Below, piece by piece: positions 32,418-61,513 of a stretch of 64,000 nt of DNA. A model generated the notes under the pieces. The model made no database searches and was not told the DNA's origin. It was given only the letters and a program-made list of their open reading frames with translations. Every line of letters begins with the position of its first letter. The first letter of the stretch is position 1. The position numbers and the translations under genes are program-made. Source of the stretch: Crocinitomix algicola (GTDB taxonomy: Bacteria; Bacteroidota; Bacteroidia; Flavobacteriales_D; Crocinitomicaceae); the NCBI RefSeq assembly GCF_001661595.2, contig NZ_LYPF02000004.1, positions 1 to 64,000 on the forward strand, in the 5' to 3' direction.

Positions 32418-32427
32418 CGTAACGACA

Positions 32428-36711: not shown

Positions 36712-36722
36712 GTCTGATATTT

Positions 36723-41087: not shown

Positions 41088-41090
41088 AAG

Positions 41091-41675: not shown

Positions 41676-41686
41676 ATTCACTGATA

Positions 41687-41694: not shown

Positions 41695-41751
41695 GAAATT
41701 ATCAATTAATAGAATTCTGGATTAATCAAAATGTGAATTAAATAAACTATT

Positions 41752-42771: not shown

Positions 42772-42772
42772 C

Positions 42773-45288: not shown

Positions 45289-46010
45289 AAACTAAATGTT
45301 AGCATAGTGATCGCCATAACAATCATGATGGCATTCTCTATAAATGTAGCCTCTGTCATAGGTAGTTTTAAAGCCGTTCCAAGACAGGCGCATCTGATTG
45401 TTTTTTTGCTCAACAAGGTTTGAGTGACACCAATGGTTGTAATTCCTAAAACGATAATTGTGGCGATAAGCGCAATCGGAATTTGAAAACGCATCAGAAA
45501 TGCTATCCCAAGTGCTGTTTCTATAAAAGGATAAATCCAAGCATAAATCGGTAATCGTTTTGCTAACGGATCATACATTCTAAAAGAGTCAGGAAACCCT
45601 TTTAGATCAAGTAGCTTAAAAAAACTAAAGACAATGTAAAAAAGTCCCATAAAATCAAGCATTACTTCTCCGATAGTCCAATTTTTGTAATGCATAAGAT
45701 TACTACTCACTGTGATATAGAGTAAAATTAAGAGAAGCGGCTTCAGTTGCTGAATCTTACTTTTTTCTTGGGTTTCGAATTCAGAAGTCGCACGAGCTGT
45801 TTTTTGAACTTCTTCTGAAATTTTATACTTTTCAGATAGTGCGGATTGAAGCTGCTCAAGAGGAATGTGAGTGCTCATTGAAATCGAGGCTTCACCCGAT
45901 TCCAGATTTATCTGGACATCTTCTACTTGGTTTATATTTATTAATGACTGTTCTACAGATGCCTTACATCCGTTACATGTCATTCCTTCTATTTTATATG
46001 TATGTTTCAT
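45285..46010 (-). CDS. HMA metal-chaperone domain fused to MauE/DoxX-like membrane protein
   Basis: A 241-residue fusion. Residues 1-70 form a heavy-metal-associated domain with the copper site GMTCNGCKASVE. After a polar linker, four helices (about residues 92-235) match the MauE/DoxX-type family, including a CACLG pair near residue 207. MauE proteins support disulphide and redox maturation of periplasmic enzymes. Combining copper binding with this membrane part suggests copper delivery or redox handling during efflux. This is inference. Confidence 0.85.
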   Translation of the reverse strand: MKHTYKIEGMTCNGCKASVEQSLININQVEDVQINLESGEASISMSTHIPLEQLQSALSEKYKISEEVQKTARATSEFETQEKSKIQQLKPLLLILLYITVSSNLMHYKNWTIGEVMLDFMGLFYIVFSFFKLLDLKGFPDSFRMYDPLAKRLPIYAWIYPFIETALGIAFLMRFQIPIALIATIIVLGITTIGVTQTLLSKKTIRCACLGTALKLPMTEATFIENAIMIVMAITMLTFSL

Positions 46011-46021
46011 TTGTTGTTTGA

Positions 46022-47269
46022 TTAAAAATTTGTGAGACGCTCGATATTTGCAACTGCAATATGAGCTCTCAACATGGATATTATCTTCTGTTTTTTAAAT
46101 AGCAGTAATTCTTGTTCCAATGAGATTAAATCATCAAAAACAGAATGATCAGCTGTGTAGTTTGCCTTCAAAATTTCAAATGCTTGTTTCGCAATTGCAA
46201 TTTGTTTATTAGACACTTCAAACGAAAGCAGTGTATTTTCGTATGTGCTTTTGAATACTGCTAACTCACTGGTTAATTGATTTACTAGCGCAGTTTTTTC
46301 GTAGGCCAGTACTTCTTGATTTAAAGCTTCAACCTTTCTGGTGTTATGATAAGTATTTCGATAAATTGGAATACGTAGCATTACTTTTGGAATGAAAATA
46401 TCTCTACCATTACCTGCGGGATTAGCATCTGTTCGTTGTCCGACAAGCGCATAGTCTAATCCGATTCCAATTGAAGGAGAATTACTGGTTTTATTCACAA
46501 TCAGTCGATTCTCTGAAGCTTCTGTTTGCGCCTGCAATAGTTTGGCTAACGGATGATGTTTCTCTATTCTTTCCTGAAATAGCGCTAAGTCAAAATACAA
46601 TTCGGGTAAAGTCAACGTATCCTCAGAGCTGATTTCAAAATTCGTGATGGATTGGTTTGTAATTTCATTGATACGCGCAATAGCCATTGCTTCATCATTT
46701 TTGATTTGCATTATATCATTCTTTATGGTTTCCATTTTCATTTGGATTCTCAATACATCAGTCATTGCTCCCTGTCCCGTTTCCATTTTTATAAGACTCA
46801 GTGTCTCTAATGATTTTAGGAGTTTGATTTCTTCCTCCAATAAGTCTTGCGTTTCATAGAGATAGAGCAGTTCATAATAGTTGATCTTCACACGATAAAA
46901 AAGATCAAGCTTTAAAGCTGAAATTTTTTCGTATTCCTGTTTGGACATAGAGATAAGTACATCTTCCTCAGCATCAAGTGCTCCAAACCACGGAAACATT
47001 TGGCTAGCACTAACCATAAGGATTTGTGGCCCTAAACGTGTTTCAGGTTGTAAAATCGGAATTCCAACACCTATTGTTGGTTGATCCAATTGTCGCGCAT
47101 TTTTTGTTTGAATTACAGCTGCCTCGTACCTTTTTTCCAAGGCTCTTAGTTTAGGATTTTGAGCTGTTGCTAATGCAAGTAACGAATCCAATGATTGGGC
47201 AAAGCAATCTTGTTTTTGGACACCAATCAACAAGACGACTAAAACGATTATATTTTGCTTAATATTCAT
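46022..47269 (-). CDS. TolC-family outer membrane efflux protein (CusC-like)
   Basis: A 415-residue channel protein with a signal peptide (ending DCFAQ). It has two repeats of the OEP fold with long coiled helices (LALATAQNPKLRALEKRYEA; LQAQTEASENRLIVNKT) and strands with PSIGIGLDYALVG. It is separate from its pump, unlike the fused Czc set. It lies between cusA (2 bp) and the HMA-MauE gene (11 bp). Confidence 0.93.
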   Translation of the reverse strand: MNIKQNIIVLVVLLIGVQKQDCFAQSLDSLLALATAQNPKLRALEKRYEAAVIQTKNARQLDQPTIGVGIPILQPETRLGPQILMVSASQMFPWFGALDAEEDVLISMSKQEYEKISALKLDLFYRVKINYYELLYLYETQDLLEEEIKLLKSLETLSLIKMETGQGAMTDVLRIQMKMETIKNDIMQIKNDEAMAIARINEITNQSITNFEISSEDTLTLPELYFDLALFQERIEKHHPLAKLLQAQTEASENRLIVNKTSNSPSIGIGLDYALVGQRTDANPAGNGRDIFIPKVMLRIPIYRNTYHNTRKVEALNQEVLAYEKTALVNQLTSELAVFKSTYENTLLSFEVSNKQIAIAKQAFEILKANYTADHSVFDDLISLEQELLLFKKQKIISMLRAHIAVANIERLTNF

Positions 47270-47271
47270 GT

Positions 47272-50200
47272 TTAACTGGTTTTAAGTAAGTTGTTCGATT
47301 TCAATTTGAGATCAATCTGCTTCCAAATACAATACAGTACGGGCACTGTAAACATGGTAATGAGGTTGAATACCATGCCTCCAAAGGAAGGAATGGCCAT
47401 AGGAAGCATAATGTCAGCTCCCTTTCCTGTAGAAGTAAGTACAGGAAGTAATGCTAAAATTGTTGTTGCCGTCGTCATCATGGCGGGCTTTACTCGTCTC
47501 AATCCTCCCTGCACTACAGCATCTTCAATAGCTTTGACGTTATTCGGTTGGTTTTTCTTGAAGCTGTCTTTGAGAAAAGTTGCCACAAGTACACCGTCAT
47601 CAGTGGCAATACCAAATAAGGCGAGAAATCCTACCCAAACGGCTACACTTAAATGTATTGTATGAATTTGAAATAAGTCCCGCATATTTGTTCCGAAAAG
47701 ACTAAAATTCATGAACCATTCTTGACCGTATAGCCAAATCATAATGAAACCTCCTGCAAATGCCACAAATACACCAGAAAACACAAAAAGGGAAGTAAGT
47801 ACAGACTTAAATTGGAAATAGAGGATTAAAAATATGATCAGTAATGCAATCGGTAAAACAACACTGAGTCGCTTGTTTGAACGAACCTGTTGTTCGTAAT
47901 TTCCTGCAAATTCATAAGTAATTCCGCTTGGAACAATTAACGTTCCATCATTTATTTTATCCTGTAGGTATGCTTCTGCATTTTGAACCACTTCAACCTC
48001 CGAAAAATCTGCTACTCTATCAAAAAGTACATAACCCAATAAAAAGTTGTTCTCACTCTTTATTGCTTGTGCGCCTTGTTCATATTCTACATCTACTAAC
48101 TCTTCTAATGGAATTTGCGTGCCATCTGGAGAAGCGATATAAATGGACTTGATTCGTTCTGGATCATTTCTAAGTTCCATAGGATAACGGACACGAATTC
48201 CGAAACGTTCTCTTCCTTCCACCGTAGTACCAACATGCTTTCCACCTATTGCAGTTTGCAGTTGACGTTGAACGTCGACAATTGTTAGCCCATAGCGACT
48301 GATTTTTTCGCGTTTTATGGCCAACATCAAATAAGGTTTTCCTACGATTCGTTCTGCAAAGACAGCTTCTGTCTTTACGCCTTTTACTTCTTTTAAATGT
48401 GTTTCTAATTGAAATCCAAAAGCTTCTATATCCTCCAAGTTTGTTCCCCTCACTTTTATCCCCATTGGCGCACGCATTCCTGTTTGTAGCATGACAAGTC
48501 TTGTCTCAATCGGTTGTAGTTTTGGTGCAGAAGTAACACCAGGAATTTTTGCTGCGTTTATGATTTCATTCCAGATATCATCAGGAGATTTGATATGTTC
48601 ACGCCATTGTCTGAAATACTGTCCGTTATCATCAGGGATAAGATTGCCTGAATTATCATAAACAAAAGCACCTTCATAATCTGTTTTAAACCGAATTTTT
48701 TGTCCATTTTCATCTTGGATATATTCAGATTTATATGAAATTATGTGTTCATACATGGACATTGGAGCAGGGTCTAATGCACTTTCAACCCGCCCTGCTT
48801 TTCCAACTACCATTTCCACTTCTGGAATTGTGTTAATTGACAAATCGAGTAGACGAATGTTACTTTCATTCATTTCCATACCAGCGTGTGGCATAGCTGT
48901 AGGCATCAATAAAAACGATCCTTCATTTAGCGAAGGCATAAACTCTTTTTCGGTCGATTTGAAAATCGTAAATCCTGTGTAAAGCAGTAAAACAATCACC
49001 CCTAGAAAAACGTACTTGATACGCAATAAAAACCGCAATATCTTTTCGTAAAAATGGATCACACCATAAAAAGAACCAATTAAAAGAATAATGATTAAGA
49101 GTACGAAAATGAAATTTATAAATATGCTTTGTGCAACACCAAGCGGCATCCAAATAGATGCGAGTAACCAGGTTACGAGTAGTGCATAAACCCCATTTTT
49201 GATGTAGCCGAATTTCTTAAGCCAAGGTTCTTGTTTATTTTCTTGAAAATAAGCGTTTAAACCACCACCAAGGGCTACAACAATACCAAGCATACCAAGA
49301 AATGAAAATTGGCCGAATAGTAATATACTTCCAAAAATGAATAGCAGCCCGTTGACCAAATACTTAAAAATTCGTGGTTTGCTTTTTATTTTAAATAACT
49401 GTTCCGCTATTGGCGGAATTACAGTAATAGCGAGAAGTACAGCAGCTAAGAGCGCAAAAGACTTCGTATAAGCAAGCGGTATAAACAATTTACCCTCTGC
49501 CGCTTGCATAGTAAATACAGGTAAAAAACTAACAATCGTTGTTGCGATAGCCGTAATTACGGCAGAAACAACATCAGTGGTTGCTTTATAAATGGTTGTA
49601 CTGATGGTTTGTGTTGGTGGTGCAACAGCTAATTGAGCAGTCATGCTTTCGGTTAAAACAATTCCCATATCCACCATTGTTCCAACAGCAATGGCGATAC
49701 CTGATAATGCCACAATGTTCGCATCAATACCGAAATACTTCATGGCAATAAAACACATCAATACAGCAACGGGCAATGATCCTGCAATGAGTAAAGAAGA
49801 TTTGAAATGAAGTAACAGCAATAACACAACAATGATGGTGATTAAAACTTCAAGTGTCAGGGCTTCTTCTAATGTTCCGATCGTTTCATGAATTAATTGT
49901 GAGCGATCATAAAAAGGAATAATCTTTACATGAGAAATGCGACCATCCGCTAATTCTTTTTGAGGTAATCCTACAGCAATTTCCTCCATTTTTTGTTTGA
50001 TATTCTGAATCACCTCCATAGGGTTAGCCCCGTATCGTGCAACGACAACTCCTCCTACTGCTGGAGCTCCAGATTTATCCAGAATTCCTCGACGTGGAGC
50101 TGGTCCCAGATGAACATGAGCAATGTCTTGAATACGAATGGGTGTATTATTAACCACCTTTACAACACTTTTTTCAATGTCTTCAACCTTTTTAACATAC

Positions 50201-50958
50201 CCCAAACCTCTAACAAAATATTCAGCTAGATTGATTTCAACAGTTTGCGCACCAACATCCAAATTAGAGGCTTCAGCGGCTCTTACAACTTCATTTATAG
50301 TAATGCCATAGTTTTTCATTTTTTCAGGCCGTACATCAATCTGGTACTCTTGTACAAAACCGCCAATAGAAGCTACTTCTGATACACCTTCTGCTGATTG
50401 TAATCCATAACGAACATAGAAATCTTGTATCGTTCTTAATTCATGTAAATCCCACCCTCCAGTTGTTTTTCCATGTTCATCTTGCCCCTCAAGGGTATAC
50501 CAAAAAACTTGACCTAGGGCTGTAGCATCAGGGCCTAGTGATGGGGTAACTCCTTCAGGAAGAAGATCAGATGGAAGTGAATTAAGTTTTTCAATGATTC
50601 GACTTCTGCTCCAATAGAAATCTATATCATCATCAAAAATTAGATAAATACTTGAAAAACCGAACATGGAATTACTCCGAACACTTTTAACTCCTGAAAT
50701 TCCTAAAAGTGCCGAGGTTAAAGGGTAAGTAATTTGATCTTCTACATCTTGTGGAGAACGTCCTGCCCATTCGGTATAGATTATTTGCTGATTCTCTCCA
50801 ATGTCTGGAATAGCATCAACAGGAACAGGATCACTTGGTAAATAAGACAAATTGAAATTGAAGGGAGAAACAACAATTCCCCAACACACAAATAAAATGA
50901 CCATTATCCATGCGACTAGCTTATTGTCAAGAAAAAATTTTACGATACGATTTAACAT
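47272..50958 (-). CDS. cusA: Copper/silver RND efflux pump (CusA-like)
   Basis: A 1228-residue HME-RND transporter with the relay motif ALSGIAIAVGTMVDMGIVLTE (about residues 420-440). The C-terminal half contains LFGIATDDGVLVATFLKDSF. Compared with E. coli CusA (about 1047 residues) it has an extra membrane-rich insertion at about 530-660. Met-rich porter positions (ALDPAPMSMYEH, SAPKLQPIETRLVMLQTGMR) fit monovalent copper or silver transport. The start codon is directly preceded by a long inverted repeat. Confidence 0.94.
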   Translation of the reverse strand: MLNRIVKFFLDNKLVAWIMVILFVCWGIVVSPFNFNLSYLPSDPVPVDAIPDIGENQQIIYTEWAGRSPQDVEDQITYPLTSALLGISGVKSVRSNSMFGFSSIYLIFDDDIDFYWSRSRIIEKLNSLPSDLLPEGVTPSLGPDATALGQVFWYTLEGQDEHGKTTGGWDLHELRTIQDFYVRYGLQSAEGVSEVASIGGFVQEYQIDVRPEKMKNYGITINEVVRAAEASNLDVGAQTVEINLAEYFVRGLGYVKKVEDIEKSVVKVVNNTPIRIQDIAHVHLGPAPRRGILDKSGAPAVGGVVVARYGANPMEVIQNIKQKMEEIAVGLPQKELADGRISHVKIIPFYDRSQLIHETIGTLEEALTLEVLITIIVVLLLLLHFKSSLLIAGSLPVAVLMCFIAMKYFGIDANIVALSGIAIAVGTMVDMGIVLTESMTAQLAVAPPTQTISTTIYKATTDVVSAVITAIATTIVSFLPVFTMQAAEGKLFIPLAYTKSFALLAAVLLAITVIPPIAEQLFKIKSKPRIFKYLVNGLLFIFGSILLFGQFSFLGMLGIVVALGGGLNAYFQENKQEPWLKKFGYIKNGVYALLVTWLLASIWMPLGVAQSIFINFIFVLLIIILLIGSFYGVIHFYEKILRFLLRIKYVFLGVIVLLLYTGFTIFKSTEKEFMPSLNEGSFLLMPTAMPHAGMEMNESNIRLLDLSINTIPEVEMVVGKAGRVESALDPAPMSMYEHIISYKSEYIQDENGQKIRFKTDYEGAFVYDNSGNLIPDDNGQYFRQWREHIKSPDDIWNEIINAAKIPGVTSAPKLQPIETRLVMLQTGMRAPMGIKVRGTNLEDIEAFGFQLETHLKEVKGVKTEAVFAERIVGKPYLMLAIKREKISRYGLTIVDVQRQLQTAIGGKHVGTTVEGRERFGIRVRYPMELRNDPERIKSIYIASPDGTQIPLEELVDVEYEQGAQAIKSENNFLLGYVLFDRVADFSEVEVVQNAEAYLQDKINDGTLIVPSGITYEFAGNYEQQVRSNKRLSVVLPIALLIIFLILYFQFKSVLTSLFVFSGVFVAFAGGFIMIWLYGQEWFMNFSLFGTNMRDLFQIHTIHLSVAVWVGFLALFGIATDDGVLVATFLKDSFKKNQPNNVKAIEDAVVQGGLRRVKPAMMTTATTILALLPVLTSTGKGADIMLPMAIPSFGGMVFNLITMFTVPVLYCIWKQIDLKLKSNNLLKTS

Positions 50959-51037
50959 TTTTCATTTTTAGAATGGAATAAAACACAGAATGCTCTAGTC
51001 TAAAAAGACCTAGAGCTTACTATTCTAAAAATGAAAA
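50959..51037 (-). promoter_or_regulatory. Nested inverted repeat filling the gap before cusA
   Basis: The whole 79-bp gap between the HYC_CC_PP stop and the cusA ATG folds on itself. The outer arms TTTTCATTTTTAGAAT and ATTCTAAAAATGAAAA (16 bp, perfect) begin and end exactly at the two genes. Inside, GCTCTAGGTCT pairs with AGACTAGAGC (one bulge). The right arm abuts the cusA ATG and would hide its ribosome-binding region. There is no T tract after the stem, so it is not a simple terminator. Confidence 0.75.
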
Positions 51038-51508
51038 TCAAATACGGAATACCTGTTGCAAAACGGTTATGTCTTGCCTCAGTAAGGGTGGTTTGTATGC
51101 CCTATAATTGGAAACAAATTTTGTTGGGTTAAACAATTGAAAATCAATCGCAGCATAAATAAGAATGGCTTGAATTTCATTCAAGTCAGTGTAATTCACA
51201 GTGGCTTGTTTTGTTGCGTCTTCCGAATCAAAATTTAATTGTTCGTCATGACAACAATTGTTTTGACAAAACCCATTTCCTTCCTTACTTTCTTGCTCGG
51301 CAAGATATTTTTTTTGGTGACAAGGCGGTAATTTTTCGAATTCTTCAGCGCTCAAGACATCCTTCTCCATATCGCATTTTTCCGCTTCAAATAAACCAAT
51401 GCTTTTTATCTCATCTCCACAGAAATGGACTTCTAGGGAAAAACCTATTGTTGAAACCAGTAACAATGGAATCAATAAAAAGGGTGCTATGGAACGCAAA
51501 ATTTTCAT
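51038..51508 (-). CDS. HYC_CC_PP-family small secreted protein
   Basis: A 156-residue protein with a signal peptide (MKILRSIAPFLLIPLLLVSTIG). The family hallmarks are visible: VHFCGDEI near residue 28, a CC pair in CQNNCCHDE near 80-88, and a C-terminal YKPPLLRQD. Such proteins are common beside copper and heavy-metal efflux genes in Bacteroidota. Their function is unknown but the Cys and His content suggests metal binding. It is the first gene of the Cus-like operon and diverges from the MbnP-like gene. Confidence 0.85.
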   Translation of the reverse strand: MKILRSIAPFLLIPLLLVSTIGFSLEVHFCGDEIKSIGLFEAEKCDMEKDVLSAEEFEKLPPCHQKKYLAEQESKEGNGFCQNNCCHDEQLNFDSEDATKQATVNYTDLNEIQAILIYAAIDFQLFNPTKFVSNYRAYKPPLLRQDITVLQQVFRI

Positions 51509-51801
51509 TTGAACTTATATACAAAATTAATGAAAAATAGTCAGACAGGAAAAATCAATGATTACAGCAACTATAAAAATTCATTAGAAAATTACAATTT
51601 ATAAGTGTTGTTTCGGTTCAAAAAAAGGTAAGCCAAACTAAGCATGAAGCAACGCAATCCAATATCTGCAAGGGTTGTAGTAGTTTTGAGATATAAGTCT
51701 TCAAGTTATTAAACATTATCTTTAGTGAATCGACAATCTAAAATTTGGATCAATACCCTTTCTGGTTTTATATTAGCGTTAAGAAAACGTAAATTAAGAC
51801 T

Positions 51802-52758
51802 ATGAAAAAACTGATACTTAGTGCATTTAGCAGTTTATTACTTTTAACAGGAATTGCTCAAACCGACGTTACACTTAAGATTAATCACAAACTTGGAGTG
51901 GACGATTTTGCATTGGATGTTGTAAGTGCCAACAATTTAGGACATGAATTCAAAGCTTCTCGATTAGAATATTATGTAACACGAATAACTATTCTACATG
52001 ATGGAGGAACAGAAACGAATGTTCCAGATGCAATAGTTGCGCTTGTACGTCCAGAGGACGAAATTTCTACTTCAATCGAATTAGGAAATTTTGATGTAAC
52101 TGATATCGAAGGGGTTAAGTTTCATATAGGTGTTTATGCTCCGTTAAATAACGAAGACCCATCTATTTGGGATGTCTCTCATCCGCTTGGACCAAAATCA
52201 CCTTCTATGCACTGGGGATGGGCATCAGGATACCGATTTATTGCGTATGAAGGTTTTGGAGGAGATGACCTTTCACAGAATTTTCAATTGCATGGTTTAG
52301 GAAACGAAAACTATTTTGAAGTAGAATCAGATGTTGAAGTTACCGACGAAGCAGGTTCATTAGTGATGAGTTTAAACGGTAACTATGCGGCAGGACTAAA
52401 TGATATTTCGTTAACAGGAGGTACTATTTCTCATGGATCAACAGGAGAAGCAAAAAAAGTATTGGAAAATTGGAGAGATGTTGTTTTTGGTCTATATACG
52501 GTTGGTTTGGAAGAAGAAAATGCATTGTCTTGGTCTTTATTCCCCAATCCTTCAAATGGTCAGATACAATTGAATTTTGCTGATGTAGAAAAGGTAAAAA
52601 CAATTAACATTCTAAATCCCCTTGGAGAATTGGTACAAACGACTTCGGTTACCAATACACAAATGAATATTGAGCTGTTAAATGCTGGTGTTTATATAGT
52701 CGCTGTGTTAAATCAAGAGGGAGAAACAGTAGCTACCGAAAGAGTAATTATAAAGTAA
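51802..52758 (+). CDS. MbnP-like copper protein with T9SS sorting domain
   Basis: A 318-residue protein with a signal peptide (ending LTGIAQ). An MbnP-type domain spans about residues 20-235, with FKASRLEYYVTRITIL, VKFHIGVYAPLNN and the signature MHWGWASGYRFIAYEG. A C-terminal type A sorting domain covers about 245-318 (LFPNPSNGQIQLN ... GVYIVAVLNQEGE). In methanotrophs MbnP gains a copper site when MbnH oxidises a Trp to kynurenine. The Trp residues of the MHWGW motif are candidates here. The partner gene follows 5 bp later. Confidence 0.87.
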   Translation: MKKLILSAFSSLLLLTGIAQTDVTLKINHKLGVDDFALDVVSANNLGHEFKASRLEYYVTRITILHDGGTETNVPDAIVALVRPEDEISTSIELGNFDVTDIEGVKFHIGVYAPLNNEDPSIWDVSHPLGPKSPSMHWGWASGYRFIAYEGFGGDDLSQNFQLHGLGNENYFEVESDVEVTDEAGSLVMSLNGNYAAGLNDISLTGGTISHGSTGEAKKVLENWRDVVFGLYTVGLEEENALSWSLFPNPSNGQIQLNFADVEKVKTINILNPLGELVQTTSVTNTQMNIELLNAGVYIVAVLNQEGETVATERVIIK

Positions 52759-52763
52759 GAGGG

Positions 52764-53858
52764 ATGAAAATGAAGCGTGGAATAATTGCCTTAAGTGCTA
52801 TAATAATTTTGGCATCTTGTAAAAAAGATCCGCCTGTAGAACCTTACGTGGCAGAATATGATGACACTCCTTATAGTTTGAAGTATCAGAATAATACATT
52901 GCCTGCTCCAAACTTACCATCTGACAACCCTTTGACAGTGCAAAAGGTAGAGTTAGGGCGTATGTTATTCTATGAAAAAACACTTTCCAAAGATGGCTCA
53001 ATGGCTTGTGCTACGTGTCATATACAAGAAGATGGCTTTTCTGATCCCGATCAATTCTCCATTGGTGTAGAAGGATTACCAGGCGCTCGTCAGGCAATGG
53101 CTGTTATTAATCTGGCTTGGAATGAAAACGGATTCTTTTGGGATGGACGTGCAGAACTGTTAAGACATCAATCTGTATTGCCAATTCAAGACCCGCTTGA
53201 AATGAATGAGACATTGGAAAATGTAATTACAAAATTAAGTCTACAACAAAACTATAAAGATCAGTTTACACGTGCATTTGGTAATGAAACCATAAACGAG
53301 CAAAGGATTTCACATGCACTTGAGGCGTTTATGTTTTCAATGGTTTCGGATGACTCAAAGTATGATCGCTATCTTGAAGGAACAGCTACCTTGACTGATG
53401 CAGAAGAACGTGGACGACAGTTGTTTTTTGCAGAGTATAATGAATTTTTCCCAGAGACATCTGGAGCTGATTGCGCACATTGTCACTCTGGTACTAATTT
53501 TGAAAACGATCAATACATGAATAATGGTTTGGATTCGGATATGGATTTCACTGATCTGGGGCGTTATGATGTAACTGAAAATGATGCCGATAAAGCTAAG
53601 TTTAAGGTAACAACCTTAAGAAATATTGCTTTAACTGCACCATACATGCATGACGGACGTTTCAATACATTAGAAGAAGTAATCAATCATTACAATAGCG
53701 AATTACATTCGTCTTCTACACTTGACCCGGCCTTGGCAAGTACAATGGGAACAGGGTTGATGTTAGACGAAGGAGACATTGCTGATTTGATCGCATTTTT
53801 GCATACGCTTACAGATGATCGATTCTTAACGAATCCGGAGTACAAATCGCCTTTTTAA
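52764..53858 (+). CDS. MbnH-like di-heme peroxidase family lipoprotein
   Basis: A 364-residue protein with a lipobox (IIILASCKKD). The haem sites are ACATCHIQ (about residues 87-94) and DCAHCHSG (about 237-244). Conserved family blocks include WDGRAELLRHQS and TLRNIALTAPYMHDGR. Pairing with an MbnP-like gene points to the MbnH branch of the MauG superfamily, which uses a bis-Fe(IV) state to oxidise Trp in its partner. A terminator follows, so the two genes form one transcript. Confidence 0.9.
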   Translation: MKMKRGIIALSAIIILASCKKDPPVEPYVAEYDDTPYSLKYQNNTLPAPNLPSDNPLTVQKVELGRMLFYEKTLSKDGSMACATCHIQEDGFSDPDQFSIGVEGLPGARQAMAVINLAWNENGFFWDGRAELLRHQSVLPIQDPLEMNETLENVITKLSLQQNYKDQFTRAFGNETINEQRISHALEAFMFSMVSDDSKYDRYLEGTATLTDAEERGRQLFFAEYNEFFPETSGADCAHCHSGTNFENDQYMNNGLDSDMDFTDLGRYDVTENDADKAKFKVTTLRNIALTAPYMHDGRFNTLEEVINHYNSELHSSSTLDPALASTMGTGLMLDEGDIADLIAFLHTLTDDRFLTNPEYKSPF

Positions 53859-53880
53859 TAGAGTAATTTAAAAACTGTGA

Positions 53881-53911
53881 AAGGGTTGACTAATCGGTCA
53901 ACCCTTTTTTG
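53881..53911 (+). terminator. Terminator after the MbnP/MbnH-like pair
   Basis: AAGGGTTGAC pairs with GTCAACCCTT across 6 bases and runs into TTTTTT. Confidence 0.93.
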
Positions 53912-53926
53912 TATTCAAATGTATTG

Positions 53927-54232
53927 TTAGTCGTCCTGTAAGAAATGGGAATCAGATGTAAATGTGAATTTTTGATTCCTGTAATTTAGGTTGATTTTAT
54001 CCGCGTCAGATGATTCCAATAGACCTTTTAATGTTGCTTTTAAAGTAGAATTGCAAGTTATGAAGGCAATTTGCACAGCATTTTCTAAAACATCCAAATC
54101 CGCAAGTTCTGGATTACTATTTAGGGCTGTTTCGCAGCACTCTTCCATCATTACCTTTTGTAATGGAAGCTGGTCTAACTGTGGGTGGCGTTTTACAATT
54201 CTATCGAATAATTCATCTACCGTTATTTTCAT
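53927..54232 (-). CDS. Hypothetical acidic cytoplasmic protein
   Basis: This 101-residue protein begins MKITVDELFDRIVKRHPQL and has a mostly helical N-terminal half with a CC pair (MMEECCETAL). The C-terminus is beta-rich (INLNYRNQKFTFTSDSHFL). No signal or membrane segment is present. A promoter element lies 40-48 bp upstream. It is convergent with the MbnH-like gene. I do not recognise the family. Confidence 0.65.
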   Translation of the reverse strand: MKITVDELFDRIVKRHPQLDQLPLQKVMMEECCETALNSNPELADLDVLENAVQIAFITCNSTLKATLKGLLESSDADKINLNYRNQKFTFTSDSHFLQDD

Positions 54233-54272
54233 AAGTGTTTGATCTAAATTTGTAATGGGTTAAATTCAAACT

Positions 54273-54280
54273 CAAAGGTA
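54273..54280 (-). promoter_or_regulatory. Promoter element TACCTTTG
   Basis: On the minus strand TTTACCTTTGAG contains the TAnnTTTG element, 41-48 bases before the ATG at 54232. A TTG box at the usual distance is not obvious. Confidence 0.4.
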
Positions 54281-54359
54281 AATGTTTTTCGAATATTCCC
54301 CCTTTCTAATTAACTTAGATTGGATAAGTATAGCAATATAAAAAAGGAATGTGTTATTT

Positions 54360-55217
54360 TTAAAGACTTCTAAACCCTTCAATCCGCTCCAAACAAATCT
54401 CCTCTGTCAATTTCAAAAAAGCTTCTGTCTCTTGCTTCCAAAACTCAATCTTATCCATATCCACAGGAAATTCCCTTTCATTACGGTAACGCCCTCCGAT
54501 ATACGCATAGTTCAATTGGTCAAACAACTTTTTATGTTCCTCATTATCATAATGAAAAACGCCTTTCAGCCGTTTATGAAAGCGCACGCACCTGTCACGC
54601 AGAGCAAACAGGTTATGTTCATGTGGATTATAATGACTAAACACCATTTCAATTGCGGTGTAACACATTTCAATCGTTTGTTGCAATTCAAATGAAGCCT
54701 TACCTAAAAAGCCATGTCCTAATGTGTCTTCAACACCTATGAAAAACTGCTTAGCAACACCAAACCATTCTTCAAAATCCGCTTCGGCAATCTCACGTCT
54801 TCGAGTTGGCGATAAACCTTTAAATGAAGCAAAATCATAACGCCCTGAATTAAACAGTTCAATTCCTTCTTTTTTAATATCGGAATAGAAATATTGGTTT
54901 TCTTCCAATGCTTTATTCACAACTCCAATGGTAACAACTAGTGTTTGCACCACAATTTCCATTTCCTTAAATGCACCACGTAATTTTGAAACTACCTGCT
55001 TTTTACGTGTTCCGTCTTCCGTAACAATCAAAATATCGAAATCACTTTTCTTTCCCTGCTCCGCTCCACGTTCGGTTTTGAAATCACCACGGGCATAACT
55101 TCCAAAAAGTAGAATAATGTCCACACGGTGAGTGTCCATTATTTTTTGGGTGATTTGCTCCAAATCGGCAATGCGCTCTGGTGGAAGATGGGATAGTATT
55201 TGGGTTAGGTTGTTCAT
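54360..55217 (-). CDS. MNT-HEPN fusion protein (nucleotidyltransferase plus HEPN)
   Basis: A 285-residue fusion. The N-terminal minimal nucleotidyltransferase domain has LLFGSYARGDF and SDFDILIV (about residues 36-75) with the catalytic Gly-Ser and Asp-x-Asp. The C-terminal HEPN domain (about 150-275) has helices with FELQQTIEMCYTAIEMV and the R-x4-H motif RCVRFH, the RNase motif of active HEPN toxins. Split MNT and HEPN proteins form toxin-antitoxin pairs in which MNT AMPylates HEPN; here both are in one chain. It diverges from the GHKL-nuclease gene. Confidence 0.87.
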   Translation of the reverse strand: MNNLTQILSHLPPERIADLEQITQKIMDTHRVDIILLFGSYARGDFKTERGAEQGKKSDFDILIVTEDGTRKKQVVSKLRGAFKEMEIVVQTLVVTIGVVNKALEENQYFYSDIKKEGIELFNSGRYDFASFKGLSPTRRREIAEADFEEWFGVAKQFFIGVEDTLGHGFLGKASFELQQTIEMCYTAIEMVFSHYNPHEHNLFALRDRCVRFHKRLKGVFHYDNEEHKKLFDQLNYAYIGGRYRNEREFPVDMDKIEFWKQETEAFLKLTEEICLERIEGFRSL

Positions 55218-55359
55218 TTTTTAGAACTTAAAATTAAGAATTTCTAAAGACTAATTTTTAAAGTGCGACAAGATTAATTATGAATGAAAGAATAATTTTC
55301 TTCAATTCTTATGATTAAATTTAAGGTTATTCAACCCAGCACATTAAAAATAAAAGTAA

Positions 55360-57387
55360 ATGTCGAAAAAGAATACAGATAAGATTGGTATAGACCTGAA
55401 GGGTAGAGTAAAACGTTTAAAACTAGCCGAGCGGAACATGTTGCTTCCTGTTTTTGAAGCTATTGTAAATTCAATTCATGCAATTGAGGATGCAAAAATT
55501 AATGATGGAGAGATTAAAATTCATATAGAACGAAGTCCACAAACTTCACTAGAGTTGGAAAGTACTTCAACTCTTCCTGATATTATAGGATTTACAATTG
55601 AGGACAATGGAATAGGATTTAATTATGACAATTACGAATCATTTAAGAGAGAATATTCCACCCACAAAGCTAATCGTGGGGGATTAGGAATTGGACGTTT
55701 TATGTGGCTGAAAACTTTTACCAATGTGAAAGTAAATAGTGTTTTTTGTGATGATAAAGTAACCTATGAAAGGCATTTTAATTTCAATGTCCGTTCTGAA
55801 GATGGGATTGAAAATCATTCTCTTAAAGCTTTAGAGTTTGATTCAAAGCATAGAACAATTGTAAAACTTATAGGCTATAAAGAGCCATACAAAAGTAAAT
55901 GTCCTAAAAAAGTTGTGACAATTGGGGATAGGATAGTCGAGCATTGCCTAATTTATTTTCTGCATGGAGATTGCCCCCAAATAGTTTTAAGTGATGGTAT
56001 AACAGAATTAAATTTGAACAATCATTTTAGCAAACTAACAGCTGGCAACAAATACACAGAAAAGTTTCAGTTGCATAAAAATCAATTCAAAATCACTTTA
56101 TTAAAATGGTTCGAGCATGAAGAATTTACACATCACAAGGTTTCTTTGTGCGCCAACCACAGGGAGGTGGAAAGTTTTAATGTAAATAAAGTATTTCCCG
56201 ATGTAAGTGGAAAGATAAATGATGAAAAAACGGGAAAAGATTATCTTATTGTTTGCTATGCCGAAGGAAAATATTTTGATGAAAACATTAATGATGAAAG
56301 GACTGCTATTGAATTTGGTAATGATAGACTAACTGATGAAGGCTTGATTAAATTAAACGATCTATATCAAGCCATTGCCCCTTCAATAAGGAAGCATTTT
56401 TCAGAGGAAGTCAAAAAATTTAAAGAGCAAAAGAATACAAGAATATCAAATTTTATCAATGAAGTTGCACCTCAATATCGAATACTGAACAAATATAACA
56501 ACTCCTTTGATGATGTCGTCGTTACCGAAAACACATCAGAGCAGGATTTAGACCTTAAATTATACAAGAAATATCAGGATGTTGAGTATAGTTTTAGAAA
56601 AGAAGCTGTCGATATTCTTAATACCGATTCGGAAGATTCAGATGAGTTAAAGTCCAAGTATAGCAAAGTGCTAGAAGAACTCTCTGATCTTAGCAAATCA
56701 AAGTTGGCACAATATGTAGTTCATAGAAAGTATATTTTAGATTTATTTCAAAAATCACTGTCACTAAATGACAACGATAAATATGAACTTGAAGATACTG
56801 TTCACAGTATAATTTATCCAACCAAGAAAGACTCTAATCAAATTGATTACGATAATCAAAATTTGTGGATAATTGACGAACGTTTAAGTTTTCATACTTT
56901 TCTATCTTCTGATAAACCTCTGAACGCTATTGACGAATTTGAAAATGATAGCCTAGACCGCCCAGACCTGATGATATTTAACAATCCTGTTTCTTATATC
57001 GAGGGAGATGAAGCACCTTTTAATTCAGTAGTTTTGGTTGAATTCAAACGTCCAATGAGAAAAGGTTATAATCAAGATGATGATAATCCCATAACCCAAC
57101 TTTACAATTATGTTAGAGAAATCAAAAAAGGTAAAAAGTTAAAGGCTGACGGAAGACCTTATGATATCAATGATAGTACCAGATTCTACTGCTATCTTAT
57201 TTGTGATATCAATGATAAAATAAAACAATATGCAGATGATGCAGCTTTGGAAAAAACTTATGATGGGCTTGGTTATTATGGATATAACAAATCCATAAAT
57301 TGTATAATTGACATAATTCCTTTTTCACAAGTCCTCTCAAATGCAAGAAAGAGAAATAAAATCCTCTTTCATAAGTTAGGTATTTGA
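55360..57387 (+). CDS. GHKL ATPase fused to a PD-(D/E)XK-like nuclease domain
   Basis: A 675-residue protein. The N-terminal HATPase_c_3-type domain has an N-box (VFEAIVNSIHAIEDA), EDNGIGF and RGGLGIGRFMWL, all needed to bind ATP. A middle region (about residues 190-470) contains a probable transducer and helices. The C-terminal 160 residues contain RPDLMIF, VVLVEFKRP and, 20 residues later, QLYNYV, a D...ExK...Q pattern of PD-(D/E)XK nucleases. ATP-driven clamp plus nuclease resembles MutL- or MORC-like DNA-acting machines. A role in phage defence is inference from its place in the island. Confidence 0.8.
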   Translation: MSKKNTDKIGIDLKGRVKRLKLAERNMLLPVFEAIVNSIHAIEDAKINDGEIKIHIERSPQTSLELESTSTLPDIIGFTIEDNGIGFNYDNYESFKREYSTHKANRGGLGIGRFMWLKTFTNVKVNSVFCDDKVTYERHFNFNVRSEDGIENHSLKALEFDSKHRTIVKLIGYKEPYKSKCPKKVVTIGDRIVEHCLIYFLHGDCPQIVLSDGITELNLNNHFSKLTAGNKYTEKFQLHKNQFKITLLKWFEHEEFTHHKVSLCANHREVESFNVNKVFPDVSGKINDEKTGKDYLIVCYAEGKYFDENINDERTAIEFGNDRLTDEGLIKLNDLYQAIAPSIRKHFSEEVKKFKEQKNTRISNFINEVAPQYRILNKYNNSFDDVVVTENTSEQDLDLKLYKKYQDVEYSFRKEAVDILNTDSEDSDELKSKYSKVLEELSDLSKSKLAQYVVHRKYILDLFQKSLSLNDNDKYELEDTVHSIIYPTKKDSNQIDYDNQNLWIIDERLSFHTFLSSDKPLNAIDEFENDSLDRPDLMIFNNPVSYIEGDEAPFNSVVLVEFKRPMRKGYNQDDDNPITQLYNYVREIKKGKKLKADGRPYDINDSTRFYCYLICDINDKIKQYADDAALEKTYDGLGYYGYNKSINCIIDIIPFSQVLSNARKRNKILFHKLGI

Positions 57388-57414
57388 TAAATATTAATTT
57401 CTTACTTTAGTACC

Positions 57415-57575
57415 TCCTAAATACAAGTATCAAAAAATGCAATTACAAAGAAACTTCTCGGTGGGTTGGTGCGCATAACTGGAAACGGCGCGGACATACT
57501 TGTATGTTAGGACACCTGTGCCTACCGAGATTTTTGTAATAACTGCGGATTATCCGCTTCCTAAAAAACAAGTAT
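57415..57575 (+). ncRNA. Structured intergenic element flanked by near-direct repeats
   Basis: ATTACAAA (57442-57449) pairs with TTTGTAAT (57533-57540), and TCTCGGTGGG (57456-57465) pairs with CCTACCGAGA (57521-57530, one G-U). The enclosed 55 bases hold three smaller hairpins, including ACATA-CTTG-TATGT and GCGC...GCGC, so a cruciform or multi-branch RNA is possible. A further hairpin GCGGATTATCCGC follows at 57545-57557. The whole is flanked by TCCTAAATACAAGTAT (57415-57430) and TCCTAAAAAACAAGTAT (57559-57575). It may be a small RNA, a regulatory leader or a miniature mobile element. Confidence 0.5.
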
Positions 57576-57576
57576 T

Positions 57577-57879
57577 ATGTTGAATTCGAAAAGCCTCAAT
57601 GGTTTTATGGTAAATCATTGTACCACACTCATTCCTGAACCTAATTCCGATTTATTTTTTATTAAAGTTCCTGTGACTTCTTACAATGAGGTAGGCATAA
57701 TCAGAACAAACCTTCTTTCAGCTATTGATTTAATTGCACGTTATATTGAAACGTGCAACTGTTCCCAAAGAAGCGAGATAACCCATACGATAAATACACT
57801 GGTTCAATTGTCGCGCAGTTTTGAATTAGAAGAAGAATTGGACGGATTAACAGAAATTTTGAAAAACCGTCCCAGTTAA
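57577..57879 (+). CDS. Small hypothetical protein
   Basis: This 100-residue protein starts MLNSKSLNGFMVNHCTTLIP and has a helical C-terminal half (IDLIARYIETCNC, THTINTLVQLSRSFELEEEL). No signal or membrane segment is present. It begins 2 bp after the second flanking repeat of the structured element, which could serve as its 5' leader. No family is recognised. Confidence 0.6.
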   Translation: MLNSKSLNGFMVNHCTTLIPEPNSDLFFIKVPVTSYNEVGIIRTNLLSAIDLIARYIETCNCSQRSEITHTINTLVQLSRSFELEEELDGLTEILKNRPS

Positions 57880-58076
57880 GAACGGTTAAGTACCGATCAT
57901 TACGAACCAATAAGGCAAAGTTGATTGATTTGGAAAAGGAAATTTTATCTAAAAAAGCTTAATAAGCCTTTTTCAAGTAAAAAAATAGTCATACAAAAGT
58001 ATTCGGGAATATATGTAAAACATGTGGGAGCATATTGATTTTACTGGGGTTTCAGTATTTTAAAATTTGATTTTCA

Positions 58077-58220
58077 GTAACGAATCGTAATTTTCCGTAA
58101 CAAAACATAACGTTTGGTAACATAGCGTAACGAAAATTATGCTTTGAACCGAATAAAACACAGTTAGATTAATTTTTCAGTAACAAACAGTAACAACAAC
58201 CTGAATTTGAGTAACGTTAC
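58077..58220. repeat. Helically phased GTAAC repeat array
   Basis: GTAAC or a close variant (GTAAT, ATAAC) starts at 58077, 58087, 58097, 58107, 58117 and 58127, exactly 10 bp apart. Two more copies are at 58180 and 58190, and a palindromic pair GTAACGTTAC is at 58211-58220. All copies of the first group face one side of the helix. The surrounding 57880-58267 stretch otherwise holds no gene. Phased iterons like these occur at replication origins and at operators for oligomeric DNA-binding proteins. Confidence 0.7.
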
Positions 58221-58267
58221 CAAAAAACAATAATTGAGTTATAAATCACGTTGAATTAATAAAGGAT

Positions 58268-58744
58268 ATGATGAGAGAGAAAATGTGTACCATTTGTAAG
58301 GAGCCCTTTACTTATAAGAACAAATCAAAGCAATATTGTTCCAATGCCTGCAAGCAACAAGCCCTGCGGAATCGGCAAAAAGTAAAATTAAAGCAGTCGG
58401 CTCACTCTACGGAAGAGTTAAATGGAAAGTATAACGTTGAACTCATTAACCGTATGTTCAATACTTGCATTAAACAAACCGAAGCCATGTGCAAAGGAAT
58501 ATCTATTCATTACTCCATCATCATTTTTATGAAGGAAATGATTCAGTCGTTAAAGTTAAACGCTCCTGTTGATTCGAAATTGAAAAAACAATTGGAGCGA
58601 ATGAAGGGAATAATGACAACGCTCTATAAATATTCAAAAAACAACCAATGTGAATACGGTTATGTTTGTTTTGATCAGCTTACTTCGGATAAGACATTGA
58701 ATGCTATAAAACAAATCAAGCGTCATTTGCAAAGTCGCGTTTAA
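58268..58744 (+). CDS. Small zinc-finger protein of mobile elements
   Basis: A 158-residue protein with an N-terminal treble-clef-like finger (CTICKEPFTYKNKSKQYC, then SNACKQQALRNRQ), followed by a basic stretch and a helical C-terminal region. It may bind DNA. It starts 47 bp after the phased GTAAC repeats and is the best candidate to recognise them. No precise family name can be given. Confidence 0.65.
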   Translation: MMREKMCTICKEPFTYKNKSKQYCSNACKQQALRNRQKVKLKQSAHSTEELNGKYNVELINRMFNTCIKQTEAMCKGISIHYSIIIFMKEMIQSLKLNAPVDSKLKKQLERMKGIMTTLYKYSKNNQCEYGYVCFDQLTSDKTLNAIKQIKRHLQSRV

Positions 58745-58800
58745 AAATGGTTTAGTTGATCGAGAACACAATTTAACTTGACTCGTCTCGTTATTTTATT

Positions 58801-58817
58801 TACTTTAGGGTATAGTA
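58801..58817 (+). promoter_or_regulatory. Inverted repeat TACT-N9-AGTA before the MerR-like gene
   Basis: TACTTTAGGGTATAGTA lies 14-30 bp before the ATG at 58831, with AT-rich flanks TTATTTTA and AATAA that extend the symmetry. Its form and place fit an autoregulatory operator of a MerR-type protein. Confidence 0.4.
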
Positions 58818-58830
58818 AAATAAGTGAATC

Positions 58831-59646
58831 ATGAACAAAGAGGAAATAAAAGCACCTGAAACACCTTATACTGATGTAGTGACCTTCTTAAAAAATAAGC
58901 AGTTTGAACTGGCGAATATGGGAGTGAGTTACAAAAATGCCTATGATTGGAGAACGTCAGGTTTGTACTTACAGGATAAGCAGCGAAAATATCGCATGAA
59001 GTACAGTCCAATAGAATATATCTGGTTATTGCTAGTTAAAGAAATACGAGAGTTTGGATTATCATTTGATGCGATTAAAAATGTCAAATCATTCCTAATG
59101 ATGCCAGTAGATGTGAGTGCATTATTGTTAACTATGAAAGAGAAAGATTCGCATCCAGAAATAATAGATGCCAAACCAGAAGACCTTGGCATAATGAAAG
59201 GTTCAAAGGAAGAGATTGAAAGAACAGTTGAGAAACTAGGAGAGCACATTGTAGATTCCATTTTCACCTCTATGCTTGTCTCTACTCTACTAAAAGAAAA
59301 CACATATTATCTGAGAATAACAAAAGAAGGAAACTGCACCTTTGAATCGGATGATGATTTATTACTTCCTGTTATTAACGAATCATATTTAACCATTCCG
59401 TTAGCCAACTTAGTTAAAGACTTTTTAGAGAAGGAACAAATAGATGCTTACAATTTAGAAGAAGAGGAGGAGGAAGATAAAATCACCCAAGAATTTGAAT
59501 TGGATGATATACTGAATAGAAAACCATCCGCACAGTTACAAAAAGAGATTGATCAGTTATTAAAAGAACTTGAAGCCAATCACATTCAATACACTTCAAG
59601 AGATGGTAAGAAAATCAATATTGGCTATGATTCGGAAGAAGCATAA
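58831..59646 (+). CDS. MerR-like DNA-binding protein
   Basis: A 271-residue protein. Residues about 25-90 look like a MerR winged helix (YDWRTSGLYLQDKQRKYRMK, then SPIEYIWLLLVKEIREFG and LSFDAIKNVKSFLM). The rest is helical and acidic (EEEEEEDKITQEFELDD near 215-231). No metal-binding Cys set is present. It sits between the zinc-finger gene and the recombinase gene. I infer a regulator of excision or of island maintenance. Confidence 0.7.
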   Translation: MNKEEIKAPETPYTDVVTFLKNKQFELANMGVSYKNAYDWRTSGLYLQDKQRKYRMKYSPIEYIWLLLVKEIREFGLSFDAIKNVKSFLMMPVDVSALLLTMKEKDSHPEIIDAKPEDLGIMKGSKEEIERTVEKLGEHIVDSIFTSMLVSTLLKENTYYLRITKEGNCTFESDDDLLLPVINESYLTIPLANLVKDFLEKEQIDAYNLEEEEEEDKITQEFELDDILNRKPSAQLQKEIDQLLKELEANHIQYTSRDGKKINIGYDSEEA

Positions 59647-59696
59647 TTTCAATTAGAACGACAGTAAAAATTACAAGATAAGATTAAGTAAACCGA

Positions 59697-59846
59697 ATGA
59701 TAAGTTTGAAGAAGTGCAGGGATTTGTTGGGCAAGAAAGGCGAACACTTGACCGATCAGCAAGTGATGCAAATTGCAAAAGAATTACAACGACTGGCTCG
59801 GATCAATATCAAGATCATTCAGGAACAAAAAAACAAGAAGAAATGA
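59697..59846 (+). CDS. Small ORF translationally coupled to the recombinase
   Basis: A 49-residue helical, basic protein starting MISLKKCRDLLGKKGEHLTD and ending IIQEQKNKKK. Its stop overlaps the recombinase start (ATGA). It contains TDQQVMQIAKELQRLARI, a HTH-like or coiled segment. Short ORFs just before serine recombinases are common in Bacteroidota. It might be a directionality or regulatory factor. Confidence 0.65.
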   Translation: MISLKKCRDLLGKKGEHLTDQQVMQIAKELQRLARINIKIIQEQKNKKK

Positions 59847-61513
59847 AGAAAGTGACCATTATGTGCAGAGTAAGTTCAGACGAACAAGCCAAGGGGTATA
59901 GTTTGGACGATCAATTTGACCGCCTTTCAGATTATTGTAAACGTTGGGGCTATGAAGTCGTTCATGTGATTCGTGAAGATCATTCCGCTAAGTCGTTTGA
60001 TCGTCCAGAGTGGAAAGCGTGGATGAAAAAAGTCAAAAGCAAAGAACTAGACACCGACGAATTACTGGTCACTTCATGGGACAGGTTTTCACGTGATTTA
60101 ACCGACGGATTAAATGTGGTGCGTGATCTGATGAAAAGAGGAATCACGCCACAAGCCATTGAACAACCTGTTGATTTAAATATTCCCGATCAGTGGCTCA
60201 TGCTTGCTGTTTATATGGCTGCACCTGATGTGGACAATCAAAAACGTTCCATTAAAATTAGAAGGGGAGTGAGACAAGGATTAAAAAACGGCTATTGGCC
60301 AAGAAAGCCCTTCTTCGGGTATATCTCCGCACGCAATGAAGAAGGGAAACACATCATTATTCCTGATCTTGTTAAAGCCCCCATTGTTAGAGAGATATTT
60401 GAGGAAGTAGCCAAAGGAACACCACAAAACGAAATTAGAGCAGATTTAGCAGAAAGAGGTATTAAGGTGTCACGTAATAACATGAGCAAAATGTTAAAGC
60501 GATTAATTTACATGGGAAAAATTGTTGTTCCTGCCTTAGAAAAAGAACCCATGCAAATTGTAGAAGGACGGCACGAACCCATAATCAGTGAAACGTTGTT
60601 TTATGAAGTACAGCAAACATTACAAGGAAACAGAAAAGCGAGAGGAAAAGCCATCCCCAAGTATGCCAAACTTCGTGACGACTTTCATTTACGCGGTGTA
60701 CTCAATTGCAATGAGTGCGGAAACACAATGACAGCAAGTTTTTCAAAAGGAAAACTGGGCAAACGATATGGGTATTATCATTGCAATCATTGTAAAAAAC
60801 AAAGGGTATCAGCAATCAAAGTACACGCAGCTTTTGATGAACTATTAAAGTCCATTCAAATCGAACCTGAAATCATGACACTCTACAATGCTTTTTTAGA
60901 AGATGAAATGAAAACTTCAGAAGTGGATAACAAAGCTGAACTGAATAAACTTAAAATTCAATTGGATCAAATCGAAAATCGACTGATTAAATCGCAAGAC
61001 TTAATGTTAGACGGAAAACTTGATCCTGACGAATACGTGAGCATAAAAGCACGATATAAGAAGCAAAAAAAGGACATCAAAGATAAAATAGCCAATTTCA
61101 AGGCTTCTAAGCGCGAATTAACGGAACTAATACAAAACGGGTTGCATTTACTTGAGAACATACGGGAAACCTACGTTACAGGCAGCATTCATCTCAAACA
61201 TAAGATTGTGGGTTCGATATTTATGGAACAGCTCAGTTTTGACGGAAAAAAATGTCGAACCCCAAAACTCAATAAGATATTTGATCTCTTTCCCAACATA
61301 GACAAGGGATTGGGAAAAGTAAAAAGGGGACAACTGAATGAAATTTTCCAGTTATCCCCTTCTGCGGAGAGAGGGAGATTCGAACTCCCGATACCCTTTC
61401 GAGTATACACGCGTTCCAGGCGTGCGCATTCGACCACTCTGCCACCTCTCCAGTTATCTTATAGCGCGCGTTTTATAAAGTTTACACGCTTTCCAGTTTC
61501 GCATTATTCTTAA
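59843..61513 (+). CDS. Serine recombinase (site-specific integrase) with host-derived C-terminus
   Basis: The coding frame from the ATG at 59843 encodes 556 residues. The resolvase domain has catalytic Ser11 in MCRVSSDEQ, LVTSWDRFSRD and MAAPDVDNQKRS. A recombinase domain follows (GYWPRKPFFGY), then a zinc ribbon (CNECGNTMTASF, YYHCNHCKK), a coiled-coil insertion (about 350-430) and a C-terminal region. The first 496 residues are native. Residues 497-556 are translated from host DNA, including the tRNA-Ser antisense strand (AERGRFELPIPFRVYTRS). The original end lies at 32313-32417. The native protein would have 530 residues. Confidence 0.93.
   Translation: MKKVTIMCRVSSDEQAKGYSLDDQFDRLSDYCKRWGYEVVHVIREDHSAKSFDRPEWKAWMKKVKSKELDTDELLVTSWDRFSRDLTDGLNVVRDLMKRGITPQAIEQPVDLNIPDQWLMLAVYMAAPDVDNQKRSIKIRRGVRQGLKNGYWPRKPFFGYISARNEEGKHIIIPDLVKAPIVREIFEEVAKGTPQNEIRADLAERGIKVSRNNMSKMLKRLIYMGKIVVPALEKEPMQIVEGRHEPIISETLFYEVQQTLQGNRKARGKAIPKYAKLRDDFHLRGVLNCNECGNTMTASFSKGKLGKRYGYYHCNHCKKQRVSAIKVHAAFDELLKSIQIEPEIMTLYNAFLEDEMKTSEVDNKAELNKLKIQLDQIENRLIKSQDLMLDGKLDPDEYVSIKARYKKQKKDIKDKIANFKASKRELTELIQNGLHLLENIRETYVTGSIHLKHKIVGSIFMEQLSFDGKKCRTPKLNKIFDLFPNIDKGLGKVKRGQLNEIFQLSPSAERGRFELPIPFRVYTRSRRAHSTTLPPLQLSYSARFIKFTRFPVSHYS
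61322..61363 (-). terminator. Terminator of tRNA-Ser, overlapping the right attachment core
   Basis: On the minus strand GGGGATAACTG pairs with CAGTTGTCCCC (one mismatch) and is followed by TTTTTAC. The second arm includes the AAGGGGAC core. In the empty site the arm would extend to AGAAGGGGAC, pairing with GTTATCCCCTTCT. Confidence 0.8.
61324..61331. other. Right attachment core (attR)
   Basis: AAGGGGAC is preceded by recombinase codons (..GTA AAA) and followed by host AACTGAATG. It is the partner of the copy at 32306-32313. Confidence 0.82.
61365..61451 (-). tRNA. tRNA-Ser(GGA)
   Basis: The 87-nt gene starts GGAGAGGTGGCAGAGTGGTC and has the anticodon loop CTGGAAC (GGA). It has a long variable arm typical of tRNA-Ser, a T-loop GTTCGAATC and the acceptor end TCTCTCC with discriminator G. 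CCA is not encoded. The recombinase frame runs antisense through it. Confidence 0.95.

Follow-up and report, generated by a model that had tools for sequence, protein, structure and literature searches.

The island and its insertion target

The window analysed here is the whole stretch of 64,000 nucleotides at the start of a Crocinitomix algicola contig (NZ_LYPF02000004.1, positions 1 to 64,000). It carries a 29-kb metal-resistance island, which is very probably an integrative element whose own large serine recombinase placed it in a tRNA-Ser gene, at the 3' end. The island and its borders comprise:

32301..61366, no strand assigned: whole island, 29,066 bp, with cargo mainly for CusA/CzcA-type metal efflux
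61364..61451, minus strand: tRNA-Ser (GGA), the insertion target, kept intact (ARAGORN)
32264..32296, no strand assigned: probable host terminator of tRNA-Ser, moved 29 kb by the insertion (fold -18.9 kcal/mol, z -5.5)

The cargo at 36723-50958 includes two CusA/CzcA-type metal efflux RND pumps, one of them apparently fused to an outer-membrane efflux protein in a single 1454-aa frame, and a HlyD/CusB-type protein with a heavy-metal-binding domain. At 54360-57387, a HEPN-nucleotidyltransferase protein (weak PADLOC match to PDC-S09) is encoded beside a 675-aa protein with a weak HATPase match. These two are possibly a defence pair.

The left flank of the island is best read as the displaced host terminator of tRNA-Ser. 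Two genus relatives (G001 and G003) have empty tRNA-Ser sites, where the host terminator directly adjoins the tRNA and the hairpin found at the right end of the island is missing. The empty site in G001 is the orthologous locus, with the same oxygenase-like gene and clpX as neighbours, and the terminator adjoining its tRNA is of the same type as that at 32264..32296. The attB predicted for the window is similar to both empty sites.

The recombinase gene in the integrated form

From its start at 59843 the recombinase frame stays open past the island edge, up to a TAA at 61511-61513, and is partly antisense to the tRNA-Ser (GGA) gene at 61364-61451. The resulting 556-aa protein and its neighbourhood are divided as follows:

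59843..61366, plus strand: element-coded part of the large serine recombinase, 508 codons (Pfam PF00239, PF07508 and PF13408; frame and length)
61367..61513, plus strand: host-coded extension of the recombinase frame, 48 residues and stop, antisense to tRNA-Ser and the DNA beyond
58268..59646, plus strand: two small uncharacterised ORFs that precede the recombinase; L166 and L168 have similar ORFs beside their recombinases

Resolvase, Recombinase and zinc-ribbon domains were matched above the Pfam cut-off, and S11, R9, R81 and R84, the catalytic serine and arginines, are invariant among 13 recombinase homologues. The two small ORFs may be considered candidates for an accessory or directionality factor. 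An AlphaFold2 model of modest quality (mean pLDDT 68, pTM 0.31), made for the host-tailed 556-aa form only, contains confidently folded domains that end at about residues 480-490. Confidence is low past residue 480, which places the swapped part outside these domains, and the host-coded extension is predicted to be unstructured (pLDDT about 25-30).

Crossover core and attachment sites

The attachment sites were assigned as follows, the slash in GCG/GAG marking the predicted point of exchange:

61364..61371, plus strand: attR core GCGGAGAG, predicted crossover GCG/GAG at 61366/61367
32298..32305, plus strand: attL core GCGGAGAG, predicted crossover at 32300/32301
61342..61391, no strand assigned: attR, P half-site (element) and B' half-site (tRNA; TCGAAC at +14)
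32276..32325, no strand assigned: attL, B half-site (host terminator side) and P' half-site (AAGGGGACTGTTATCGAAC; TCGAAC at +19)

A first-pass annotation of this DNA had placed the core at AAGGGGAC, copies of which begin at 61324 and 32306 (61324-61331 and 32306-32313) in the same codon phase as the tail frame ending at 32417. We rejected this assignment. The right-hand copy sits in the hairpin at 61322-61363, which has counterparts in homologues at differing tRNA and tmRNA targets, and AAGGGGAC is missing from the empty tRNA-Ser sites. Homologous recombinases of genus relatives lie at tRNA-Ser genes of differing anticodon, each with a hairpin such as AAGGGGACAACTG...CAGTTATCCCCTTC between recombinase and tRNA. 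Since this hairpin is missing from the empty sites and present in each relative, it is element-borne, and the repeat common to both ends is GCGGAGAG. Judged from these comparisons, GCGGAGAG is the real core, with one copy in the tRNA-Ser 3' end and the other at the left border of the island, and AAGGGGAC is part of a repeated half-site motif, a predicted binding site of the recombinase, that moves with the element. That the crossover nevertheless takes place at AAGGGGAC, giving a joined protein of 530 aa, is hardly credible: the motif does occur at both island ends in the same phase, but its right copy is element DNA kept in relatives at different tRNAs, it forms one arm of a hairpin with compensatory changes, and the TCGAAC offsets fit the 5-bp rule with GCG/GAG as the centre.

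This rule refers to serine integrases, in which the ZD motif lies 5 bp farther out in attP than in attB (PMC3783163). In the window, TCGAAC is found at +19 in P' vs +14 in B', a 5-bp shift of the zinc-ribbon motif that applies to the P'/B' side only. Furthermore, the two attP arms around GCG/GAG share AGAAGGGGA in mirror image, and 13 of 25 positions match (shuffle p about 0.01).

The detached 3' end and the predicted joined protein

At the left end of the island the frame interrupted at the core continues:

32301..32417, plus strand: detached recombinase 3' end, 38-residue tail and TAA, in frame across the core

The tail reads ERRGLLSNSFFFENRSEFTKVIEDLERLKELRQELRSK, and joining across GCG/GAG gives ...IFQLSPSA-ERRGLLSNSFFFENRSEFTKVIEDLERLKELRQELRSK followed by the stop. 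The predicted excised form would thereby comprise 546 aa (508 + 38), compared to the integrated form of 556 aa whose last 48 residues are host-coded. The new core shortens the host-coded part, for which 60 residues had been given, to 48. The 530-aa join was correct arithmetic for a crossover at AAGGGGAC, but with GCGGAGAG the excised-form protein has 546 aa. The tail of 34 residues after RG was right in sequence and phase, a few residues at the join excepted, but the full tail has 38. Because both repeats are in the same codon phase, the correction leaves the tail sequence unchanged. The central proposal of the first-pass annotation, that the integrated and excised forms would encode different C-termini, is supported by the frame and the att anatomy as well as by the tailed homologues described below.

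The native tail ends in ELRSK, without an ssrA-like ending, and the ends of other tails vary. We also considered whether the left end encodes a small ORF of its own, and rejected this for want of a conserved start codon after the core. A search of phage, plasmid and IMG/VR sets for a recombinase with an intact attP gave no close relative, the best full-length matches being below about 30% identity.

A probable replacement terminator built from a half-site

Between the recombinase domains and the core lies the hairpin mentioned above:

61322..61363, minus strand: element-borne hairpin and T-run, predicted intrinsic terminator for tRNA-Ser (terminator scan, fold, compensatory changes)

On the tRNA strand the hairpin folds with -24.6 kcal/mol (z -6.3) and is followed by the T-run. 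In the comparison of homologues, which have counterparts between recombinase and core whatever the tRNA or tmRNA target, 17 cells were changed on both sides vs a shuffled mean of 5.8. The core-proximal arm is the P half-site of attP, and the recombinase frame reads through the whole hairpin. The element thus appears to supply a new terminator-like structure, with the P half-site as one arm, that would replace the displaced terminator of the tRNA. Elements of this type may shield the tRNA that they enter by forming its terminator out of an att half-site.

Homologues and naturally joined copies

In 28 of 28 homologues, found on genome contigs that mostly derive from metagenome assemblies, the recombinase frame is open through the island edge; none has a stop codon before the edge, and natural ends at or before residue 496 are thus not seen. 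The host-coded tails of these homologues vary with the target, which may be tRNA-Ser, Leu, Ala, Phe, Arg or Glu or tmRNA. The window shares the codon boundary of the crossover with 24 of the 28. Three rumen Bacteroidales homologues (L064-L066) are off the codon phase, and L054 is without the TCGAA motif. One Bacteroidetes MAG contains three closely similar recombinases (L058, L059 and L060) at three targets (one tmRNA-like, tRNA-Arg and tRNA-Glu), and their predicted central dinucleotides differ, GG vs AG.

Homologues joined in frame to a tail were detected in three genomes (G125, G154 and G479). In G125, a member of the same family, the first recombinase (rec1, 778974-780575, 533 aa) continues past the core, enters the left end of the following element and terminates in the tail ESEGDLSNFLEDDLKLITNCYYCFATTI. 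A second copy, rec3, is identical to rec1 over 505 residues, with 1 nucleotide difference in 1515 (99.9% identical DNA), and runs into attB-like sequence at the contig end, where the contig stops and the target is only partly visible. A third remnant in this genome has yet another tail, and G154 and G479 contain shorter joined remnants. One recombinase with different C-termini occurs in nature, in a tandem array and not as an observed circle.

Arrays of units of about 90 bp to several kb were found in G154 (L275, L277), G209 (L240/L249), G479 (L283) and G002:C126 (L133/L152). Their units start with the core, left end and tail, often end in a terminator and are mostly without a recombinase. We regard them as cassette-like or accretion arrays, as expected at tRNA and tmRNA genes. 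Two units without recombinase at L133:1257-7560 each carry a single large secreted-protein-like gene, one of them split into two ORFs. Miniature units with about 170-230 bp between cores (L149:2104-2271, L151:15374-15542, L157:3463-3638 and L025:1058-1284) have a T-arm-like hairpin (GGGATCACTGCGTGATCCC type) at the start and a terminator at the end. At G004:C171 (L136:2922-3050), a recombinase-type hairpin, core and tail are joined in an attP-like manner, but there is no recombinase upstream; the gene before the hairpin resembles the cation transporter of the window at 32428-33222.

Conservation of the tail as protein

About 60 left ends of related elements with an in-frame tail were found in Bacteroidota, namely in Crocinitomix, other members of the family, Winogradskyella, Psychroserpens, Patiriisocius, Polaribacter-like genomes and one Bacteroidales genome. 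The motif used for listing them requires the first eight codons, and therefore the coding test was run on the sequence past the P' site. Within Crocinitomix alone, the pN/pS of the tail is only about 0.58, which is too weak to decide, so divergent tails were compared instead, with one spurious sequence left out of the final comparison. Past the P' site these tails, which share 56% nucleotide identity, reach a BLOSUM value per codon of 1.83 in frame vs -0.08 and -0.34 in the other frames, and random scatter of the same number of differences reached 0.70 at most. Two other groupings of tails gave the same in-frame result, which makes three separate comparisons in all. The differences are commonest at third positions, and an insertion of 11 codons, present in the tail of the window, keeps the frame. 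A motif of the type G-x-x-S-N-x-x-x-E/D-E/D-L and the spacing of leucines are conserved, and the conservation extends about 12 codons past the half-site of 24-25 bp. Tail length ranges from 17 to 49 aa, and the part beyond the motif may be unconstrained. As far as the substitution pattern tells, the tail is real coding sequence that is conserved as protein. Its conservation, although it is not encoded with the recombinase when the element is integrated, points to selection in the joined state.

Alternatively it might be that the tail frame is a by-product of constraint on the DNA of the att site or promoter, the missing stop codon being neutral. The first eight codons do overlap the P' site, pN/pS is only moderately below 1, and units without recombinase retain the left end; with many such tailed units, part of the DNA conservation could serve the att function. 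Such constraint would, however, not be expected to act about 12 codons past the half-site, in a protein-like manner in one frame only and in three comparisons, nor to concentrate differences at third positions, keep the indel in frame and conserve the crossover phase across targets. We consider this explanation improbable.

A recombinase gene probably split by integration

The explanation we favour, and hold to be very probable, is a recombinase gene which is split by integration and is whole only on the circle or beside another island. The direct evidence consists of the att anatomy, the preservation of the frame, the protein-level conservation of the tail and the natural full-length joined copy in a relative. 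The model puts attP within the recombinase gene, at the boundary of codons 508 and 509. On the circular form, with the predicted junction 61366/32301 (CCCCTTCTGCG joined to GAGAGAAGGGGACTG), the gene would be whole and end in the conserved 38-residue tail. Integration by attP x attB would cut it at GCG/GAG. The coding sequence of the tail would remain behind at the opposite island end (attL), and the integrated recombinase would gain an accidental C-terminus from the antisense strand of the tRNA. A second element with the same kind of left end, arriving at the same tRNA, would give the older recombinase its tail back.

The sequence data suggest that the tail is functional, most likely as an appended helix that aids integration-competent synapsis or stabilises the protein, and that the integrated enzyme would be weakened or locked. 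Most likely the tail would assist when the circle integrates and would then be lost; the tail swap could in this way control integration vs excision. More tentatively, the tail might act as a sensor of the integration state. To be competent, the recombinase gene would have to adjoin a left end, either on the circle or through a neighbouring unit of an array, and integration would disarm the enzyme by removing the tail. The tail would serve non-autonomous units as a movable 3' exon with which they re-arm a recombinase already present. At tRNA and tmRNA genes this would amount to an integron-like cassette system driven by a serine recombinase. We regard this as possible, short of likely.

A rather unlikely alternative is that the swap acts via stability, the host-coded tail marking the integrated recombinase for degradation or its mRNA colliding with the tRNA transcript, and the native tail having no specific role in synapsis. 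The predicted lack of structure in the host tail, a frame that lies antisense to a tRNA gene whose transcription is required, and the related C-terminal degradation switch in phage BPs (PMC4557955) are in line with this, but the protein-level conservation of the native tail is left unexplained and the tail of the window is without an ssrA-like ending. Unlikely, too, is a normally working integrated recombinase whose C-terminus past about residue 490 is irrelevant, with tails persisting only as circles need a stop codon. The confidently folded domains end near 480-490, and DsiB of Dehalococcoides is already of the expected length before its att site (McMurdie et al., PMC3146451); a mere stop codon, however, would not conserve the G-x-x-S-N-x-x-x-E/D-E/D-L type motif and the leucine spacing. 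If the tail of the split gene controls activity, the directionality of a serine integrase would be hard-wired in gene structure, apart from the known directionality factors. Database entries for such integrated recombinases have C-termini of host origin, and tools cloned from these entries would thus come without the tail.

Comparison with known systems

The island shares the domain order, the partly palindromic attP and the 5-bp shift of the ZD motif with the large serine integrases of A118/LI, Bxb1 and phiC31, but its relatives target the 3' ends of tRNA and tmRNA genes. The location of attP inside the recombinase gene sets it apart from these model phages, too. Enzymes of this class recombine attP with attB, and a directionality factor is required for excision. 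Integron cassettes depend on a tyrosine integrase and attC, whereas here a serine recombinase is used and units are bounded by core and P'. Similarity to the SCC recombinase CcrB (NCBIfam NF047343) is limited to 105.5 bits, far below the family cut-off of 900 bits; the target is different, and no CcrA-like partner is evident among the ORFs adjoining the recombinase of the window. In the integration-dependent immunity of mycobacteriophage BPs (PMC4557955), attP likewise lies inside a gene and integration alters the C-terminus and, in BPs, activity. That gene encodes a repressor whose viral form has a degradation tag, in contrast to a recombinase whose excised form has a conserved tail.

A close parallel are the ssrA islands of Dehalococcoides, where the frame of DsiB, a CcrB-like serine recombinase, has no stop codon before the att site; its authors suggested that the protein might reach full length only in the circular form or with a second island alongside (McMurdie et al. 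2011, PMC3146451). Among the papers searched, no later test of this suggestion was found. Both systems have a serine recombinase whose 3' end overlaps the att site without a stop inside the element, an RNA gene as target, and tandem islands of which many are without recombinase. The hosts here are Bacteroidota, several tRNAs are used besides tmRNA, and the core is at the acceptor-stem end of tRNA-Ser, unlike the T-loop crossover in the tmRNA of Dehalococcoides. DsiB furthermore belongs to a six-gene integration module with a second small serine recombinase, whereas no DsiA/RecF/ParB/Mom module was seen beside the recombinase of the window (Pfam, neighbouring ORFs); this check covered the ORFs neighbouring it in the window, other relatives being only partly annotated. 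The idea itself was thus already proposed in 2011 for DsiB. New are the conservation of the tail as protein and the naturally joined copies and, compared to the DsiB report, a predicted terminator made from a half-site. They turn the earlier speculation into a testable pattern, in which a gene has its last, exon-like piece kept at the opposite end of the element, and this piece appears to be under selection in many lineages.
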